Shown here one piece after another: positions 49,303 through 59,501 of a DNA stretch of 64,000 nt. Origin of the DNA: Sulfurospirillum sp. UCH001 (GTDB lineage Bacteria > Campylobacterota > Campylobacteria > Campylobacterales > Sulfurospirillaceae); NCBI RefSeq assembly GCF_001548035.1, contig NZ_AP014723.1:2170001-2234000 (forward strand). Direction: 5' to 3'. A program made the translations under genes and the position numbers. Within the stretch, counting starts at the first letter, position 1. Each line of letters begins with the position of its first letter. The notes beneath the pieces are model-generated. The model was given only the letters and a program-made list of their open reading frames with translations, had not been told where the DNA came from and ran no database searches.

Positions 49303-50688
49303 TCATTTATCTTCTTCGCTTTCATAAATACCGAACTCTTTTAGTTGTTTTTTAAGTGTATTTCGCGAAATATTGAGAAATGCTGAAAGCTGTGTAATAT
49401 TCGAACAAAGAGCGAAGCTTACCTGTAAAAAAGACTTTTGCATCATGTGTTCTAATTCGTATGCCTTTTCAATACCTTCTTGTTCTAAAAAATCACGACA
49501 AAATTGTTCAATACCCTTTTTTTCATACGATGATGTATCTTCGAATTCCTTGATATCATCTGCCTTAATCATATCATCGCTAGTATTCAAACAGGCACTA
49601 TAGATTGTATTGCGTAACTCTCTAATGTTACCTCTCCAGTGATGTTGTAAAAGTTTTTTGATGGCTTCTTCAGAGATAGAACTAATTGTTGTTTTGAGAT
49701 CACGATTTGCTTTGGCGATAAAATGCTCACATAAAATAGGAATATCTTGAATCCGCTCTTTGAGTGTTGGCATCGTAATAGTGAGCATTGAAAGCCTAAA
49801 GTAAAGATCCTCTCGAAAACTTTTTTGTTGACTTTGTTCTTTGAGATTAGCATTGGTTGCACTGATAATGCGTCCTTCAAAATGAAGTTCTTTAGTTCCT
49901 CCAACACGTCTAAACTTCTTTGTCTCTAAAAAACGTAAAAGCTTGCTTTGAAGTTCAATGTCTAGTTCACCAATTTCATCTAAGAAGAGTGTTCCTTCTC
50001 CCGTTTGTTCTGCAAAACCAATATGCTGTTTATCGGCGCTCGTAAAAGAACCCTTCTCATGCCCAAAAAGCTGACTCTCAAACAATTCTTTAGGAATTGA
50101 TGCACAATTGACAGCAATAAAAGGATGTGCACTTCGTTCAGAATTGGTATGTATAAGATTAGCGATCAGTTCTTTACCTGTACCTGTTTCACCATAAATA
50201 AGTATAGCAAGATCATTGTTTGCAGCAATACCAATCTTTTTATAGATCTCCTTCATCGTTTCATAAGAGCCTACAAATTCCTCTTCTCCTTGCTTAATCG
50301 ATTTTTTTGCGCTCTTTTCTTTGCTTGAGGGGTGTGTGTATTTTTCAACCAATTCTAAAAGTTGTGACTCATCAAAAGGCTTTTGTAAAATGTCTTTAAT
50401 ACCAATTTTTGATGCTTCGATCATATTTGTAGGCGTAGTATAAGCTGTCATCAAAATAATGGGAAGATTCAACCCTGCTTTTTTAAACTGCTTAATCAAA
50501 TCAATCCCTGTAAGATTTTCACCTAACATAACATCAACAATCAAAAGCTCAACACCTTGTTCTTCAATCATTAAAGAAAGTTCAAACTCTTCGCCATTAA
50601 ACTGCAACGGTGTATGTTGGTTGCGTTGTAAAATTTTAGCAACTGAGTAGCGAATTTCTTGTTGATCATCAATGATGGCGATTTTCAT
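49303..50688 (-). CDS. Sigma54-dependent NtrC-family response regulator of the arr locus
   Basis: A 461-residue regulator. The receiver (about 1-120) has its Asp in LLIVDVMLGENLTG. The AAA+ domain (about 140-370) has Walker A GETGTGKE and Walker B GTLFLDEIGEL. A Fis-type HTH lies at the end (ITQLSAFLNISRNTLKKQL). The sigma54-contacting GAFTGA loop reads GSFTSA, an unusual variant. It overlaps the kinase gene by 4 bp. A -24/-12 promoter lies before the divergent arrC, its obvious target. The gene set (binding protein, kinase, regulator) matches AioXSR-type arsenic sensing. Confidence 0.9.
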   Translation of the reverse strand: MKIAIIDDQQEIRYSVAKILQRNQHTPLQFNGEEFELSLMIEEQGVELLIVDVMLGENLTGIDLIKQFKKAGLNLPIILMTAYTTPTNMIEASKIGIKDILQKPFDESQLLELVEKYTHPSSKEKSAKKSIKQGEEEFVGSYETMKEIYKKIGIAANNDLAILIYGETGTGKELIANLIHTNSERSAHPFIAVNCASIPKELFESQLFGHEKGSFTSADKQHIGFAEQTGEGTLFLDEIGELDIELQSKLLRFLETKKFRRVGGTKELHFEGRIISATNANLKEQSQQKSFREDLYFRLSMLTITMPTLKERIQDIPILCEHFIAKANRDLKTTISSISEEAIKKLLQHHWRGNIRELRNTIYSACLNTSDDMIKADDIKEFEDTSSYEKKGIEQFCRDFLEQEGIEKAYELEHMMQKSFLQVSFALCSNITQLSAFLNISRNTLKKQLKEFGIYESEEDK

Positions 50689-52052
50689 GCAACCTCTTCA
50701 CATGGGATATAAAGACAAAACGTTGTCTGTTCTTTTTGACTTTCAAATTCGATATAGCCATTGGATAAATAAACAATTTTATAAATACTAAAAAGTCCCA
50801 AACCAGACCCCTCTTTTTTAGTAGTAAAAAAAGGTTTGAAAAGATTTGTCTTAGTTTTTTCATCCATATTTTCACCACTATTTTTGACACATAAAATGGA
50901 GAATCCTACTTGATCTGCCCTTTTCCATGTTATTTCAATAGTACTTAATTGGAATGCTGCATCAATGGCATTATTCAATAAATTGATCAAAATAATTTCA
51001 ATAGCATTTGCGCCCATTTTAACTTTTAAATCCTCTTCAACATGACTTTCAATCCCTAAATGTTTTGCACTTAACGAAGCACGCAGTAGCGCAATAGATT
51101 CTTCTACAAATGGTTTGACAAGTAAAGGGTTTTCGTACTTAAAATCTGCGGGTTTAGCAAGAGCCAAAAAATCTACTACTTGATGATCAATGCGTGCTAG
51201 TGTGCCGTGAATGATAGGCATATCCTCTTTATCAGGCACTTGTGCTGGAGAGAGTAAAAGTTTTAAAGGTTGCAATAAATTCTTCACTTCATGAGCAAAA
51301 GAAGAACCAATTTCTCCTAAAATAATCAATGAATGTGAAATGCGTGCATTCTTTTCTTCTTTCTCAATAGATTCTCTAAGTTCATGCATGAGCTGTGTCG
51401 TTTTTTCAATAATACGAGTTATTTCATCGTTTTCTTTTCCTTGATATATTGTAATATCATCCCAACGTTTTTCAATCATCGCTGTTGCATTATTGGAAAG
51501 AAGATTAAGCCTTCCCAGCAATCTTCCCATAAATATATTAGCGATAATGAGCGAAAGAAGTGCGACCATAATTAAAAGAATGAACTGTGCCAAAAAGGTA
51601 TCTTGCAGCATACTAAAGAGTGTTTGGTTTTTCACTTTAAGAACAAAAGAGCCAAAGGTAACGCCATCTTGTTCAAAAGGGACAACAGTGTAAGTATCAA
51701 ACTCTCTAAAGGTATCTCCTAGACGATAATGTTCTGTATCAGTATGAGCAACGATAACATTATTTGTGTCAATGAAACCAGAGCTTTCGATCATACTGCT
51801 AGAACTTAATGTTTTGAGAAATTTATAAAGCTCCCACTGATTACTAGTTAGAATAAAATCACTTACAAAAGCTTTATTAGAATTAATATTGGTCTTAATG
51901 AGCTCATCAATAATCTGATTCGTATGATTTTTATGAATATCAATGTTGATTAAAATAGAGACAGAAGAGATTGTAACAACAACCCAAAAAATAAGCGTTG
52001 CTAATTTAACTTGAACAGAGAGAGCTAAAAGATAATCAACGAATTTTTTCAT
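50685..52052 (-). CDS. Membrane sensor histidine kinase (NtrB/AioS-like) of the arr locus
   Basis: A 455-residue kinase. TM1 is at about 16-37, a periplasmic domain of about 120 residues follows, then TM2 at about 158-178 (FILLIMVALLSLIIANIF) and a HAMP-like linker. HisKA has ILGEIGSSFAHEVKNLLQPL (His about 255). The HATPase has N-box LINLLNNAIDAA and G-box KEGSGLGLFSIY. It lies between the binding-protein and regulator genes with 4-bp overlaps on both sides, so the three are made together. It probably receives the signal from the periplasmic binding protein. Confidence 0.9.
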   Translation of the reverse strand: MKKFVDYLLALSVQVKLATLIFWVVVTISSVSILINIDIHKNHTNQIIDELIKTNINSNKAFVSDFILTSNQWELYKFLKTLSSSSMIESSGFIDTNNVIVAHTDTEHYRLGDTFREFDTYTVVPFEQDGVTFGSFVLKVKNQTLFSMLQDTFLAQFILLIMVALLSLIIANIFMGRLLGRLNLLSNNATAMIEKRWDDITIYQGKENDEITRIIEKTTQLMHELRESIEKEEKNARISHSLIILGEIGSSFAHEVKNLLQPLKLLLSPAQVPDKEDMPIIHGTLARIDHQVVDFLALAKPADFKYENPLLVKPFVEESIALLRASLSAKHLGIESHVEEDLKVKMGANAIEIILINLLNNAIDAAFQLSTIEITWKRADQVGFSILCVKNSGENMDEKTKTNLFKPFFTTKKEGSGLGLFSIYKIVYLSNGYIEFESQKEQTTFCLYIPCEEVA

Positions 52053-52921
52053 TGTCTCTGTTCAATAACTTCAAGCATTTTTGCTACATTTGAAAAATCT
52101 TGACCTGATGGAAGATCAAAACGGTCCAGCGAGAGTTTTTCTAAAATACTTTTTCCATAAGGATCTAAATGCATTGTTGCAAAAGCTTTTTGTAACATTT
52201 CAAACTGTTTTTTGGGTAATGCACTTCTTGCGACAATAGGAGAATTAGTATAAGGTCCCAATATTTGAACAATTTTAAGTTGCTCAATCTGTTCTGGGTG
52301 CTTTTGGGCAAAACGGGTATAGACAATGTTATCTACGCTTGCACCATCCACAAACCCATCAATCACAGCTTTGATCGATTCGCCGTGTTCATAGGTATAA
52401 ATGTATGATTTGAAAAATGTTTTAGGATCCATCCCATGACTAAGCATATAATAACTAGGTGCTGTTGCTCCTGAATTACTCTCTGGATCAGTAAAGGCAA
52501 AAATAGCTCCTTTAAAATCTGCCAGCGAATTGAATCGACTATTTTTTTTGGCAATAATATAAGAATAATATTGATCACTTCCATCAAAAATAGGGATAAC
52601 TAAAATTTTCCCAGTACCATCTTTATCCAATTTAGTATAGCTTGAGTTACAAACATAAGCAATATCTACTTTATTTTCTTTGATAAGTGTATTCATTTCT
52701 GCATAAGTCTTTGAAAAACGTATTTGTACATCAAAATCACTGATTTTATGCTCTAAATAATTTTCCCAATCCATAAAATTTTTGAGATCATCTTTGAAAA
52801 CAGTTCCTGTAAGACCAAGGACTATTTTTACTTTGGCATAGAGTGAAAAAGGCAACATTAGTAGCAAAAAAAACATGGTAAATTTTTGAAAGGCACTGGT
52901 CAAAATTTGATCGTTTTTCAT
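52049..52921 (-). CDS. Periplasmic PhnD-like substrate-binding protein, putative arsenic sensor (AioX/ArrX-like)
   Basis: A 290-residue protein with a signal peptide (hydrophobic core FFLLLMLPFSLYA, cleavage near residue 29). The phosphate/phosphonate-binding type II fold follows: VKIVLGLTGTVFKDD, FTDPESNSGATAPSYYML and EHGESIKAVIDGFVDGASVDN. No transporter genes accompany it. Instead it is coupled to a histidine kinase, as in AioX, which presents arsenite to AioS. A single Cys91 follows DIAYV, and AioX also relies on one cysteine for arsenite. That the two cysteines correspond is inference. It is divergent from arrC. Confidence 0.8.
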   Translation of the reverse strand: MKNDQILTSAFQKFTMFFLLLMLPFSLYAKVKIVLGLTGTVFKDDLKNFMDWENYLEHKISDFDVQIRFSKTYAEMNTLIKENKVDIAYVCNSSYTKLDKDGTGKILVIPIFDGSDQYYSYIIAKKNSRFNSLADFKGAIFAFTDPESNSGATAPSYYMLSHGMDPKTFFKSYIYTYEHGESIKAVIDGFVDGASVDNIVYTRFAQKHPEQIEQLKIVQILGPYTNSPIVARSALPKKQFEMLQKAFATMHLDPYGKSILEKLSLDRFDLPSGQDFSNVAKMLEVIEQRQ

Positions 52922-52975
52922 CTCTTCGAAGCTCCTTTTTTCTTAAAAATTCCCTATTTTATGGGGTTTTCAAAG

Positions 52976-52992
52976 TTGGCACATTAATTGCA
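52976..52992 (+). promoter_or_regulatory. Sigma54 (-24/-12) promoter of arrCAB
   Basis: TTGGCAC at 52976-52982 and TTGCA at 52988-52992. GG (52978-52979) and GC (52990-52991) have the required 10-bp spacing, an almost perfect RpoN site. Transcription would start near 53003, about 40 nt before arrC. It pairs with the NtrC-type regulator encoded in the same locus. The 54 bp between this site and the binding-protein gene must hold any enhancer; I see no obvious palindrome there. Confidence 0.88.
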
Positions 52993-53044
52993 GTTAACAC
53001 ATTGTACTTGAAGAAAAGTTCAAAAAACTTTAAAGGAGTCCATG

Positions 53045-53881
53045 ATGAATTTATTGTGGGATGTACGGGTCTCTTTAGATCTGTTCTTGGGTGGTTTAGG
53101 TGTAGGTGCCTTCCTTGTGGGGGTTATACTTTACTATGTCGATGCGAAAATTTACGAGGGTTTTGTTAAAAAATCATTTGTTATTGCACCGCTTTTAGTG
53201 ATAGCAGGATTGCTTCTACTTCTCACAGAACTTGGTCGACCATTGAACGTGATTAAAACGATTTATGCGGTTAATCCAACATCGTTTATGTCCATTGGTA
53301 TTTTTTTACAAAGTGCATTTGCAGCCGTTGCGCTTCTTATCGCCTTTAAAGCTCTTACGAGCGGTGTTGCTTCTCTTAGCTCAAAAGTCATTTATGCAGG
53401 TGCCATTCTTGCAGGCTTAGTAGGCTTATATCATGGATTTTTGCTCTCAGGCATTGCCAAAGAGCCATGGAATAATGCCATTCCTGTGATTTTCTTTGTT
53501 TCCTCTATTCTTTCAGGCGTATCATTAATGATTCTGCTAAATCTAGAAAGTTTGGAAAATCTTGTCACACGCTTTAAACTCCCACTTATTATCAATATGG
53601 TTTTAACACTGGAGTTAGCAGCTGTCTTTGCATGGGTTTACAATTTAGCTCTTACAACAGCTTCTTCTAAACATGCTTATGATGTTCTCATAAGTAGTTT
53701 TAGTATGGAATTCTGGGTTCTAAGTATCTTATTAGGGCTTATTGCACCTTTGATTATTTTTACATTGGTTATTTTGAATAAATTATCCCTCAAAGCAGTC
53801 GCCATTCCAACATTTTCAATTATTGTGATAGGAAGCTTCTTCCTTAAAAACTTAGTTGTATATCTTGGTCAAGCAGTATAA
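53045..53881 (+). CDS. arrC: NrfD/PsrC-type membrane subunit, putative quinol-oxidising ArrC
   Basis: The second of two adjacent ATG codons is chosen because GGAG then has a 6-nt spacing. The 278-residue product has about eight membrane helices and NrfD-family features (MNLLWDVRVSLDLFLGGLGV, LTELGRPLNVIKTIYAVNP, GLYHGFLLSGIAKEPWNNAI). It would take electrons from menaquinol and pass them to the Fe-S subunit. It is the first gene of the operon, behind the sigma54 promoter, and ends 10 bp before arrA. Gene order C-A-B differs from the arrAB order of Shewanella. Confidence 0.85.
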   Translation: MNLLWDVRVSLDLFLGGLGVGAFLVGVILYYVDAKIYEGFVKKSFVIAPLLVIAGLLLLLTELGRPLNVIKTIYAVNPTSFMSIGIFLQSAFAAVALLIAFKALTSGVASLSSKVIYAGAILAGLVGLYHGFLLSGIAKEPWNNAIPVIFFVSSILSGVSLMILLNLESLENLVTRFKLPLIINMVLTLELAAVFAWVYNLALTTASSKHAYDVLISSFSMEFWVLSILLGLIAPLIIFTLVILNKLSLKAVAIPTFSIIVIGSFFLKNLVVYLGQAV

Positions 53882-53891
53882 GGAGTCAATG

Positions 53892-56450
53892 ATGAGTATT
53901 AACAGAAGAGATTTTCTCAAAACAACAGCAGGAAGCGCTGCGGTAGCTTCAACACTTTCTATTTTTCCTGAAGAAGTTGAAGCAAAAACAGGTGAACTTG
54001 GTTACGAAGGTGAAGCAGGCAAATGGGTAGCATCAACCTGTCAAGGATGCACAAGTTGGTGTAGCATTCAAGGACTTGTGGTTGATGGTAAAGTGATTAA
54101 AGTGAGAGGTAATCCAAACTCTCCAAGTGGTGGTCGCATCTGTCCTCGCCCACATTTAGCATTGCAACAAGTATACGATCCTGATCGTGTTAAAACACCT
54201 CTTAAACGTACCAATCCTAAAAAAGGTAGAGGCATTGATCCTAAATTTGTACCTATTTCATGGGATGAAGCGATTAATACAATCGCCGATAAAATTATGG
54301 AACTTATTAATGCAGGGGAAACGCATAAATTCCTTTTAACACGTGGTCGCTACACAGGATTAAATGAAATTATGTATGGAACTTTTCCAAAATTAATTGG
54401 AAGTCCAAATAATATTTCACATAGTGCCTTATGTGCAGATGCGGAAGAATTTGGACGAGAACAATCTGAGGGCTATCCTGCTTATGCTGATTTTGACCTT
54501 CAAAATACACGCTATATTTTAGGGTGGAGTTCTGATATGGTTGCATCTAACCGACAAACACCATGGTTTATCAATCAATTTGGAAATGTTAAAGATAGGG
54601 CAAAAATCACAACAATAGATCCTCGTTTATCAGCTACTGGTGCAAAATCACATCGCTGGCTACCAATTATTCCAGGAACAGATGGCGCATTAGCCATTGC
54701 AATTGCACATGTTATTCTTGCTGAAGGAAAATGGAATAAGGACTTTGTAGGCGATTTTGCTGATAAAGTCAATTATTTCGTTGTCGGACAAGAAGTGCCA
54801 ACGGAAATTATTGTTGAAGATAAAAAAATTCCTATCGTATTTAATGAAATTCATACGAATGGCGTTGTCGCATGGTGGAACTTAGAATTAAAAGATCGTA
54901 CACCTGAATGGGCAGAACCTATTACAGGTATTAGTGCTAAAGAAATCCGTGAAGTGGCACGTGAATTTGCGGAAGCTGGAAGCAGAGCAATTTCATGGAC
55001 AAGCCCAGGATCTTCTATGCAAATTAGAGGTGGTATTTCTGCGTTTGCTTGCCATGCACTTAATGGTCTTGTAGGGTCTGTTGATTCTGTAGGTGGTATT
55101 TTGCAACAAGGTTCAGCACCAACTGCTAAAACACCTGACGTAAAACCTTATCTTGATCCTCGCTTTGCAGAGAGTTTGAAAAAACCAAAGATAGATCAGC
55201 GAGGTACCAAAGGTTTTCCTGCGCTTGAGCACATGAAATCAGGTCAATTTGTTGTCACATCAAGAGTTGCGCAAGCGATGCTTGATCAAGATCCATATGA
55301 CATTAAAATGGCAATTGGTTACTGGAATAACTGGGTGTTCTCCTCTATGGGAACAAAACACTGGGAAGAAGCAATGGCAAAGCTTCCATTTTTTGCACAT
55401 ATCACAACAAATATCGCTGAGATGACAATGTTCGCAGACATCGTATTACCAGCAAAAATGCATATGCTTGAACGTTACGGATTCGCAAAAAATAAACAAA
55501 ACCTAACAGCATATCTCTCAGTTCATCAACCGCTTATCAAACCTTATGGTGATGCAAAAACTGATGAAACAGAAGTACCATTTTTAATTGCACAAGCTCT
55601 CGCTAAAAAAGGTTTTGATTTACCTTTGAAATATTATCAAGAAAATTTCAAAGATCCTGAAACGGGTAAAGTTCCCGAAACTGCAGAGGAATTTGATCTT
55701 TTTGCAACAAAATTCTTCACAAAGCCTTGTTGGGATGGAAGTAGCAATAGCAAAGGCGATACTATCAATAGTTGGAACGAATTGCTCGATAAAGGTATTT
55801 GGAAATCAAAACGTTACAAAATTGGTGAAAAGATTGGTCATTTCCATACAGCTACACACAAATTTGAATTTTTCAGTGAAACGCTTAAAGCAGGAATGCA
55901 AAATCATGCAGATAAACATAAAATGACGCTTGATGAAGCCATTGAAGCTGCAAATTATACCGTCAAAGGAGAAGCCTTCTTTGTTCCTCATTATGAACCA
56001 GCTGTACGTTATGGAGATGAAAAAACGTATCCATTCATCTTTATTGATCATCGATCACGTCTTAATCGTGAAGGAAGAAGCCAAAATTCACCTTGGTATT
56101 ACAGCACCAAAAGTGTTGATCCAGGTGATGAAAATGAGAAGGATGTTACCAAAATCAATCCTTTGGATGGCAAAAAATTTGGACTCAAAAACGGCGATAA
56201 AGTACGCGTTAGTTCTATGTTTGGAACGATTGAAAGTGAGATCAAACTATGGGAAGGTATCCGCCCAGGAACGGTTTCTAAATGTTATGGTCAAGGACAC
56301 TGGGCATATGGTCGCGTAGGATCTGAGATCTTTGGATCAAAACCTCGCGGTGGAAATAACAATGATTTATATTGTTATGATTGGGAACGCCTTAGTGGTT
56401 CAAACCCACGACATGGTGGACATACTCGTGTCAAAATCGAAAAGATATAG
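53892..56450 (+). CDS. arrA: Respiratory arsenate reductase-like catalytic molybdoprotein ArrA
   Basis: The start is at MSINRRDFLKTTAG, with AGGAG 6 nt upstream; 852 residues, as usual for ArrA. A Tat signal (RRDFLK) exports it. The [4Fe-4S] cysteines are C50-x2-C-x3-C-x26-C84. The Mo ligand is Cys181 in SHSALCADAEEFG. Three segments are those I know from ArrA: PKFVPISWDEA, TRGRYTGLNEI (151-154, substrate pocket) and ELKDRTPEW; the first and third match the targets of common arrA primers. It would reduce arsenate to arsenite in the periplasm. Relatives (polysulfide, antimonate reductases) remain possible. No TorD-type chaperone gene is nearby. Confidence 0.85.
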   Translation: MSINRRDFLKTTAGSAAVASTLSIFPEEVEAKTGELGYEGEAGKWVASTCQGCTSWCSIQGLVVDGKVIKVRGNPNSPSGGRICPRPHLALQQVYDPDRVKTPLKRTNPKKGRGIDPKFVPISWDEAINTIADKIMELINAGETHKFLLTRGRYTGLNEIMYGTFPKLIGSPNNISHSALCADAEEFGREQSEGYPAYADFDLQNTRYILGWSSDMVASNRQTPWFINQFGNVKDRAKITTIDPRLSATGAKSHRWLPIIPGTDGALAIAIAHVILAEGKWNKDFVGDFADKVNYFVVGQEVPTEIIVEDKKIPIVFNEIHTNGVVAWWNLELKDRTPEWAEPITGISAKEIREVAREFAEAGSRAISWTSPGSSMQIRGGISAFACHALNGLVGSVDSVGGILQQGSAPTAKTPDVKPYLDPRFAESLKKPKIDQRGTKGFPALEHMKSGQFVVTSRVAQAMLDQDPYDIKMAIGYWNNWVFSSMGTKHWEEAMAKLPFFAHITTNIAEMTMFADIVLPAKMHMLERYGFAKNKQNLTAYLSVHQPLIKPYGDAKTDETEVPFLIAQALAKKGFDLPLKYYQENFKDPETGKVPETAEEFDLFATKFFTKPCWDGSSNSKGDTINSWNELLDKGIWKSKRYKIGEKIGHFHTATHKFEFFSETLKAGMQNHADKHKMTLDEAIEAANYTVKGEAFFVPHYEPAVRYGDEKTYPFIFIDHRSRLNREGRSQNSPWYYSTKSVDPGDENEKDVTKINPLDGKKFGLKNGDKVRVSSMFGTIESEIKLWEGIRPGTVSKCYGQGHWAYGRVGSEIFGSKPRGGNNNDLYCYDWERLSGSNPRHGGHTRVKIEKI

Positions 56451-56464
56451 GTGAAGGATAAACA

Positions 56465-57163
56465 ATGGCAAAAAAATATGGAATGATTATTGACCTCCAT
56501 CGTTGTGTTGGATGTGGTGCATGTGATCTTGCATGTAAGAGTGAAAATAATACACCTGTTGGAATTGATTGGGCGAGTCATAAGATCGAAACGTATGGCG
56601 TATTTCCAAAAGTTACGTATACCCATACACCAACGCTTTGTAACCACTGTGAAGATGCTCCATGTGTTAGAGTTTGCCCAACACAAGCGATGCATAAAAC
56701 AGACGAAGGATTCGTGGTCCACGATCCAAGTCTTTGTATTGGTTGTAAAAGCTGTATGTTGGCGGATCCTTATGGTGTTATCTTTTTCAACAAAGAACAT
56801 GCATTCTTAGATTATGCAACGGATGATAGTAGTATCATCAAAGGTGGAACGTTCTCTAAAAAAGAGCTCAGTGACAAAGCAAAAGCACCGTTCCCTAATT
56901 TCAATGCGGCACGTGGCGCTGGCGGTTATGAAGCTATACGTCGCAAAGGTGCGGTTGAGAAATGTACTTTCTGTAACCATAGGGTTGCTCAGGGACTTGC
57001 CCCTGCATGTGTAGTAGCATGTCCAGCGGATGCACGTATATTTGGCGATCTCAATGATGAAAAAAGTCAAATCGCAACAACGTTGAAAGCAAATAAACCA
57101 ACAGTATTGCTTCCTGAAAAAGGCACAAAACCAAAAGTGTTTTATATCAGAAGCTACAACTAA
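56465..57163 (+). CDS. arrB: Four-cluster ferredoxin subunit ArrB
   Basis: The 232-residue electron-transfer subunit linking ArrC to ArrA. Cysteine groups: CVGCGACDLAC, CNHCEDAPCVRVC, CIGCKSCMLAD and CTFCNHRV...CVVACP. The third motif has Asp where the fourth Cys is usual (MLADPYG versus MLACPYG), confirmed at the DNA level (GCG GAT CCT). One cluster may therefore be ligated differently. It is 14 bp after arrA and is followed by a terminator. It has no Tat signal and would be exported with ArrA. Confidence 0.87.
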   Translation: MAKKYGMIIDLHRCVGCGACDLACKSENNTPVGIDWASHKIETYGVFPKVTYTHTPTLCNHCEDAPCVRVCPTQAMHKTDEGFVVHDPSLCIGCKSCMLADPYGVIFFNKEHAFLDYATDDSSIIKGGTFSKKELSDKAKAPFPNFNAARGAGGYEAIRRKGAVEKCTFCNHRVAQGLAPACVVACPADARIFGDLNDEKSQIATTLKANKPTVLLPEKGTKPKVFYIRSYN

Positions 57164-57189: not shown

Positions 57190-57307
57190 GTCTTGATATT
57201 AAATTATGTGATAGTAATTTTGTACCCTATTTTGTACCCTAAATGTTGCCGATTTGTGTATTTTATTTTTATAAAATGCCCTATTTTAGGGATTTAAAGG
57301 TGAATGA
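57190..57307. other. Gene-free junction between arr operon and third attachment repeat
   Basis: AT-rich. It contains a tandem duplicate of TTTTGTACCCTA (about 57218-57241) and no gene. The doubled motif recalls the doubled GTGCCA motifs near the integrase 3' end and at 48817, perhaps worn 3' ends of integrase genes. Confidence 0.4.
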
Positions 57308-57352
57308 CAGCGTTGAGGTCATGGGTTCGATCCCCCCCCTACACTCCACCAC
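57308..57352 (+). repeat. Degenerate attachment site copy 3 (tRNA-Ala 3' end)
   Basis: It matches the att core from CAGCGTTGAGGTCA to CTACACTCCACCAC, with one substitution (GTCATGGG for GTCAGGGG) and three extra C residues (eight in place of five). It is no longer a faithful tRNA end, so integrase recognition is uncertain. Confidence 0.85.
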
Positions 57353-58335: not shown

Positions 58336-59178
58336 CTAATTCTGCGAAGCCATATTTAATTTCTCATTATATCTTTTTTCAAATTCATTGGGCGAAATAT
58401 AACCAAGATAGCTATGCCTTCTGGTTGAATTATAAAACATTTCAATGTAATAAAATATGTCTGATTGTGCTTCCTCTCGTGTAATATAAATCTGTTTTTT
58501 GACACATTCACGCTTAAATGTTTTAAAAAAGCTTTCAGCCACTGCATTATCATAACAGTTGCCTCGCCTGCTCATGCTAGGAATCAGGTTGTATTTTTTT
58601 AGGAGTGCTTGCCACTCGTAAGAGCTATACTGTGATCCTTGATCAGAGTGTACAATAACTTCATGATGTGGTTTTTGTCTAAAGGTTGCCATTTCCAGAG
58701 CTTTTAGAGCTAACTGTGTTGTCATGCGATGACTTGTTGCCCATCCAGCAACTTTTCTACTGAAAAGGTCTAATACAACCGCTAAATAAAACCATCCTTC
58801 ATGTGTTTTGATATAGGTTATATCTGTTACCCATGTGTGATTTGGCTCTTGAACATTGAAACACTGCCCAAGATGGTTAGGATGTGCCAAATGTCTCTGC
58901 CCTTTTTTATAACGAGGTTTTTTCTGTTTGACACCTGCACCAAAGAGTTTGGCTATGTTCATAAGTCTTGCGACTCTTTTTTTATTCACACTGATACCTG
59001 ATGCTATAAGATCTTTGGTAACAGTTCGATATCCATAGATACGACCACTGTGTTCATAAGCCTCTTTAATGTGTTGCAAGACCACTTTATTATCTCTATC
59101 ACGTTTTGATTCTGGTTGTTTATTCCATGCATAATAACCACTAAAATGGACTTGCAAAGCTTTGCACATTCTTCGCAC
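58336..59178 (-). CDS. IS3-family transposase OrfB
   Basis: A 280-residue DDE transposase with HTH_21-like YEHSGRIYGYRTVTKDLIA, then Asp in TWVTDITYIKTHEG, Asp in VIVHSDQGSQYSS and Glu in NAVAESFFKTFKREC. It is translated as a fusion with OrfA through a -1 shift at the AAAAAAG site (plus-strand CTTTTTT, 59250-59256). The frame upstream of the first ATG is open to that site. It looks intact. Confidence 0.94.
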   Translation of the reverse strand: MRRMCKALQVHFSGYYAWNKQPESKRDRDNKVVLQHIKEAYEHSGRIYGYRTVTKDLIASGISVNKKRVARLMNIAKLFGAGVKQKKPRYKKGQRHLAHPNHLGQCFNVQEPNHTWVTDITYIKTHEGWFYLAVVLDLFSRKVAGWATSHRMTTQLALKALEMATFRQKPHHEVIVHSDQGSQYSSYEWQALLKKYNLIPSMSRRGNCYDNAVAESFFKTFKRECVKKQIYITREEAQSDIFYYIEMFYNSTRRHSYLGYISPNEFEKRYNEKLNMASQN

Positions 59179-59216
59179 GGGATAAAATGGCTTATACTCT
59201 TTAATGAAGGCGTACT

Positions 59217-59501
59217 TTACTTTTGATTCTTGGCAAAGTACGCTGCGGCCTTTTTTAGAATGTCACGCTCCTCGGTGACTCTTTTTAATTCTGCTTTGAG
59301 CTTCCTATTCTCGGATGATAAATCTTTGGAAGCTTGGTGTTGTGAGGTACTTTGAGGATTACTATAGATTTTTATCCATGCTTTGAGTGAATCAGGATGC
59401 ACTCCTAATCTTTGTGCGGTATCTTTAATGGGATAGCCATTTTTTACAATTTGATTGACTGCCTCTTGTTTGAACTCGTCTGTGTATAGTTTATTTGCCA
59501 T
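59217..59501 (-). CDS. IS3-family transposase OrfA
   Basis: A 94-residue DNA-binding subunit with the HTH YPIKDTAQRLGVHPDSLKAW and a coiled coil ending RDILKKAAAYFAKNQK. It contains the A_AAA_AAG slippery heptamer for making OrfAB. Confidence 0.93.
   Translation of the reverse strand: MANKLYTDEFKQEAVNQIVKNGYPIKDTAQRLGVHPDSLKAWIKIYSNPQSTSQHQASKDLSSENRKLKAELKRVTEERDILKKAAAYFAKNQK

Follow-up and report, generated by a model that had tools for sequence, protein, structure and literature searches.

Whether RpoN (sigma54) of Campylobacterota serves anaerobic respiration in addition to flagellar synthesis is the question raised by a short sequence, TTGGCACATTAATTGCA, located in front of a putative arsenate reductase operon of Sulfurospirillum sp. 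UCH001. A positive answer would bring dissimilatory arsenate reduction, through which arsenic can be mobilised into groundwater, within the sigma54 regulon and would name a precise candidate promoter and operator for it. The analysis of the window, i.e., the whole 64,000-nucleotide stretch of DNA, and of related genomes indicates that TTGGCACATTAATTGCA (52976..52992, forward strand) is very probably a working, ArrR-activated sigma54 promoter of arrCAB, the arr counterpart of the switch known for aio operons.

Two divergent groups of genes flank the element. On the reverse strand arrX (52049..52921) encodes a periplasmic PhnD-like oxyanion-binding protein (PF12974), whose best PDB sequence is ArrX 6x6b (E 1.6e-41) and which is predicted from this similarity to the solved protein to bind arsenic oxyanions. 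The same strand carries arrS (50685..52052), encoding an AtoS/ZraS-like sensor histidine kinase with a HATPase_c domain, and arrR (49303..50688), encoding a response regulator (PF00072) with an AAA+ sigma54 interaction domain (PF00158, E 8.9e-65); the pairing of the promoter with a neighbouring sigma54 activator, proposed in the initial annotation, is thus borne out. The sigma54-contact loop of ArrR reads GSFTSA in the window and in nine relatives, which keeps the F and T of the canonical GAFTGA and changes two positions, and we assume that this loop is competent with sigma54.

The forward strand carries arrC (53042..53881), encoding an NrfD-like membrane subunit (PF03916), arrA (53892..56450), encoding a molybdopterin catalytic subunit with a TAT signal, and arrB (56465..57163), encoding an iron-sulphur subunit. 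The X, S and R genes directly adjoin this molybdoenzyme operon, as expected of an XSR-controlled arsenic respiration operon. The top-ranked families of the two latter proteins are ArrA NF041714 (1069 bits) and ArrB NF041715 (297.5 bits), though both scores fall under the curated NCBIfam cut-offs (1600 and 450 bits, respectively), and therefore the name arr is strong but not certain. These low scores, together with the paralogous XSR cassettes adjoining ttr-like and aio operons in relatives, favour a reading in which the sigma54 promoter is real, while the cassette senses or serves another oxyanion or acceptor and the operon encodes an ArrA-like molybdoenzyme other than arsenate reductase. The likelihood of this appears small, as the best PDB match of ArrA is by far Shewanella ArrA 6cz7 (E 4.5e-282, 942 bits; the next match reaches 171 bits), with which it has in common the RGRY and SPNNISHS stretches, presumably of the active site, and the X protein is closest to the solved ArrX. 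Moreover, ArrA of a further arr locus in genome G458 scores alike (1048 bits), hence the NCBIfam cut-off may simply exclude this branch. The host is probably able to breathe arsenate, and the placement of the promoter before a respiratory operon, claimed earlier, stands, with the operon probably encoding a respiratory arsenate reductase. Downstream of arrB, positions 57323-57351 of the window resemble the 3' end of a tRNA gene whose remainder is missing; this sequence precedes an IS3-like transposase (58336-59501), is the only genomic copy within 2 mismatches and is perhaps the scar of an integrated element.

TTGGCACATTAATTGCA lies within the 120-bp intergenic gap between the divergent arrXSR and arrCAB, 49 bases before the arrC ATG at 53042. 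Its GG (52978-52979) and GC (52990-52991) elements have exactly 10 bases between them, and the whole is close to YTGGCACGN4TTGCW, the sigma54 consensus quoted in the available part of PMC2848651. The weights of our promoter matrix were set by hand from the known consensus, the same as that quoted there. With this matrix TTGGCACATTAATTGCA scored 19.6, the highest value in the window (the runner-up reached 15.5), and shuffling, done 20 times for the window and 2000 times for the 120-bp gap, never produced a site of at least 19. The pattern TGGCACN5TTGC had 58 matches in the window at up to two mismatches (45.7 expected), only TTGGCACATTAATTGCA being free of mismatches, which upholds the original description of a near-perfect -24/-12 promoter with exact spacing. 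In the whole 2.6-Mb genome TGGCACN5TTGCW occurred exactly three times; at up to one mismatch it was found 108 times versus 51 for the reversed control, so that a bare match to the motif is weak evidence and the context decides. It is conservation and gene context that take TTGGCACATTAATTGCA beyond chance, and the motif by itself proves little. A near-identical sigma54-like site, TGGCACATTGATTGCA, is present at another locus (L066, 4049-4470), 49 bp before a HIT-family-like gene.

The search for ArrA (E<=1e-120) identified 11 of 298 genomes of the order, and in ten of them, the window's genome included, arrXSR faces arrCAB across approximately 120 bp. The promoter core is kept in all 10 aligned arr loci: TGG, the A at 52981 and TTG are invariant, the final C is present in nine, and the spacer is variable. 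G116 has GT in place of GC at -12, and a Sulfurospirillum UBA6810 fragment has 11 bases, not 10, from GG to GC. The same type of ArrR was found in 15 of 397 Campylobacterota genomes, namely the eleven with ArrA and four others (G458, G213, G037 and G173). The first of these four carries an arr locus (ArrA identity 68%). In G213 and G037 (loci L186 and L187, respectively) the XSR cassette adjoins a ttr-like operon, and in G173 (L188, 3274-10289) it lies beside aioBA, rpoN is absent and the regulator is without the sigma54 loop altogether. At L186 and L187 the XSR cassettes are paralogous and encode AAA+ regulators, and both -24/-12 sites and perfect palindromes are seen upstream. Among these 15 genomes, which are related and do not represent independent trials, rpoN is present in 13, and all 13 encode a G(S/A)FT(S/D)A loop and carry, ahead of the partner operon, a GG-N10-G(C/T) site. 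In the two rpoN-less ones neither the sigma54-contact loop nor a -24/-12 site was found, and both retain an operator-like sequence.

The possibility that TTGGCACATTAATTGCA is a chance motif and that arrCAB is expressed from an ordinary sigma70 promoter controlled by ArrR or a global regulator seems very slight: such a promoter could be overlooked, since the sigma70 promoters of Campylobacterota are not known to have a firm -35 box, and the cassette of the two genomes lacking rpoN presumably functions without sigma54, but the exact sigma54 contact bases are selectively conserved next to a variable spacer, the site is missing only where rpoN is missing, and the candidate sigma70 promoter was rejected, as the sole sigma70-type match in 52840-53060 is weak and lies on the other strand.

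For the favoured sigma54 promoter, the predicted transcription start near 53003 fits the strong cross-species conservation that resumes at about 53000; the alignment delimits a conserved arrC leader with a ribosome-binding site, extending from the predicted start (53000..53041, forward strand). An RNA element in this leader was considered and rejected, because its folding was no better than that of shuffled sequences. Between arrX and the -24 box there is a palindrome-like element (52952..52966), CCCTATTTTATGGGG here and CCCTAnnnTAGGG in most relatives, which may hold the -10 sequence of arrX; a CCCTATTTTAGGG-like palindrome is seen at this place and again after arrB (57279-57291). Although CCCTAnnnTAGGG occurs in 19 copies in the genome versus 0 for the reversed control, its role as a global operator was rejected, as the copies are mostly located just past gene ends and have matching flanks, resembling terminators.

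The alignment of the upstream DNA revealed tandem, operator-like TGGTmAAA... sequences, which we propose as candidate ArrR operators. The proximal one, TGGTCAAAATTTGATCG (52897..52913), is located in the 5' coding region of arrX, 79 bp ahead of the first base of the -24 box, and its TGGTCAAA part is invariant in 10 of 10 loci. The distal one, TGGTAAATTTTTGAAAG (52876..52892), lies inside arrX, 100 bp upstream of the -24 box and 21 bp from the proximal site; the two thus fall among the opening codons of the gene. Similar spacing is maintained across loci, the distances to the first base of the -24 box being 78-81 and 99-102 bp. At least one operator-like site is present in all 14 promoter-bearing loci examined and both in 11 of them; in G037 and G213 one of the sites is a perfect 17-bp palindrome, TGGTAAAAATTTTACCA. 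When the motif was compared with 500 shuffles at five loci outside its definition, it beat all of them in three, with p of 0.076 and 0.124 in the other two. Only the 35-bp two-site pattern was specific in genome searches, having at up to three mismatches one occurrence, at the arr locus; a lone site was discarded as a search tool, since TGGTMAAAWWTTGA with 2 mismatches gave 425 matches versus 406 for the reversed control. As the sites fall in arrX coding DNA, protein constraint may contribute to their conservation, although the N-terminal protein sequence is variable elsewhere.

The genome encodes the sigma factor required, in two rpoN copies (G000:C1:1119793, L062, and G000:C1:1343710, L063), one near nifX and one after lptB. 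Two separate rpoN matches are found in 22 of 24 genomes of the genus; of the remaining two, one has just one rpoN gene and the other shows mere fragments of a gene. Three full sigma54 activators are encoded, i.e., a FlgR-like (387-aa) and a NifA-like (467-aa) protein and ArrR; given the former two and the nif-linked second rpoN, arr would be the third sigma54 circuit of this organism. The idea, put forward in the initial annotation, that arr widens the regulon of an RpoN best known for flagellar genes therefore stands as regards the addition of a respiratory operon; however, RpoN is not only flagellar here, in view of the NifA-like activator and the rpoN copy near nifX.

The scan of named genomes yielded 80 arr-like loci in total. 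Left out were L136, with no ArrA match above 600 bits; L076, L111, L132 and L146, with short upstream DNA; the Campylobacterota loci L071, L072, L073 and L075; and the near-duplicate L113. When a set length of at most 1780 bp, with its end just within arrA, was scanned, strong -24/-12 sites (score of at least 13.5) were present in 14 of the 24 remaining loci with an AAA+ ArrR nearby versus 3 of the 46 without it (Fisher 4e-6; rank test 1.9e-6), while the reverse-strand control leaned weakly in the same direction (p 0.012). The 1780-bp stretch replaced one covering roughly 400 bp ahead of the first gene for an arr subunit after the latter was seen to miss sites before small Desulfobacterales leader genes, and the association is significant with both. 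Two of the three positives without an AAA+ ArrR (L144 and L130) lie on contigs ending close to the gene, and L144 has an ArrR fragment below the 100-bit limit used. The strong sites belong to Desulfobacterota, Denitrovibrio and further lineages. Since they track the AAA+ ArrR across phyla, sigma54 control of arr looks widespread, following the class of regulator, to judge from these predicted sites. At L074, arrCAB is close to that of the window (ArrA 73%) and X, S and R are only distantly related, yet a sigma54-type site is still present. At eight Desulfobacterales arr loci (L126, L128, L137, L141, L142, L145, L147 and L149) a long ArrR-like AAA+ protein of about 740 aa is encoded, mostly directly after arrX, and our search found no separate arrS at these eight; the protein is perhaps a fused sensor-regulator.

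The part most worth following is that of the rpoN-less relatives, in which the loop and the promoter are absent and the operator is retained, as they allow the loss of sigma54 dependence by an enhancer-binding protein to be studied as a natural experiment. That all Arcobacter species have lost RpoN is already stated in the consulted section of PMC9321776. In G108, the eleventh genome with ArrA, neither the promoter nor rpoN was found, and two operator-like copies, 21 bp apart, are kept. Its cassette may be of aio descent: the X protein matches the X of the G173 aio cassette (44%) slightly better than ArrX of the window (39%), and the gap before arrC contains what looks on visual inspection like the broken start of AioB. 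If so, it would be an aio-type regulator, and not ArrR itself, that lost the loop, on one or two occasions. More generally, we give roughly even chances to a scenario in which entire operons for anaerobic respiration (arr, ttr-like) in Campylobacterota are placed under sigma54 by an exchangeable X-S-R cassette, which, where sigma54 has been lost, is kept and rewired, the regulator shedding its contact loop and the promoter its -24/-12 elements while the operator stays, so that an enhancer-binding protein becomes a conventional activator of the main polymerase.

In the proposed mechanism of arrCAB activation, arsenate or a related oxyanion would bind periplasmic ArrX, which would signal through the kinase ArrS to ArrR. 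Phosphorylated ArrR would then bind the TGGTmAAA pair (52876 and 52897) and oligomerise; using ATP, it would open the RNA polymerase-sigma54 complex waiting on the -24/-12 element in an rpoN-dependent manner, and transcription would start near 53003.

The idea of sigma54 control of arr is not wholly new, because Badilla et al. 2018 (PMC5908839), in the portion consulted, described ArrX and noted the epsilonproteobacterial ArrR as AtoC-like, and the XSR/RpoN design is established for arsenite oxidase. Our search of the open-access literature, a scope outside which most subscription papers fall, turned up no description of arr being served by a sigma54 promoter, and a term search of the main text of a review on respiratory regulation in Campylobacterota (PMC6682613) gave zero occurrences of RpoN or sigma54.

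Among known systems, ArrXSR of Chrysiogenes arsenatis resembles the one described here in that the ArrX sensor adjoins the arr operon; according to the same portion of PMC5908839, its ArrR is CitB-like, without the AAA+ domain of the window's ArrR, and the region before arrAB showed no detectable RpoN promoter. The FlgR/RpoN flagellar and NifA/RpoN nif systems of the same genome likewise combine RpoN with an AAA+ activator, although the activators and targets are different and arr is a respiratory operon. The aioXSR/RpoN-aioBA systems of Herminiimonas, Agrobacterium and Rhizobium NT-26, as presented in the relevant parts of PMC2848651 and PMC3834237, share with arr the periplasmic X, the kinase S, the AAA+ R and the -24/-12 promoter. 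For the Herminiimonas enzyme, arsenite oxidase, a -12/-24 promoter was indicated by 5'RACE and by an rpoN mutant (PMC2848651), and, within the cited part of PMC3834237, two tandem palindromes with a -24/-12 element preceded 12 of 12 aioBA operons with aioXSR and none of those without. The two palindrome-like sites of aio lie 100-200 nt upstream of the first gene, and the arr locus likewise has two tandem sites. The arr operator, TGGTmAAA..., is unlike the ArxR site known from the literature, gtaacaattcaagc. In contrast to aio, the target of the arr switch is a reductase, arrCAB, not an oxidase, and the regulatory genes are divergent to the operon.
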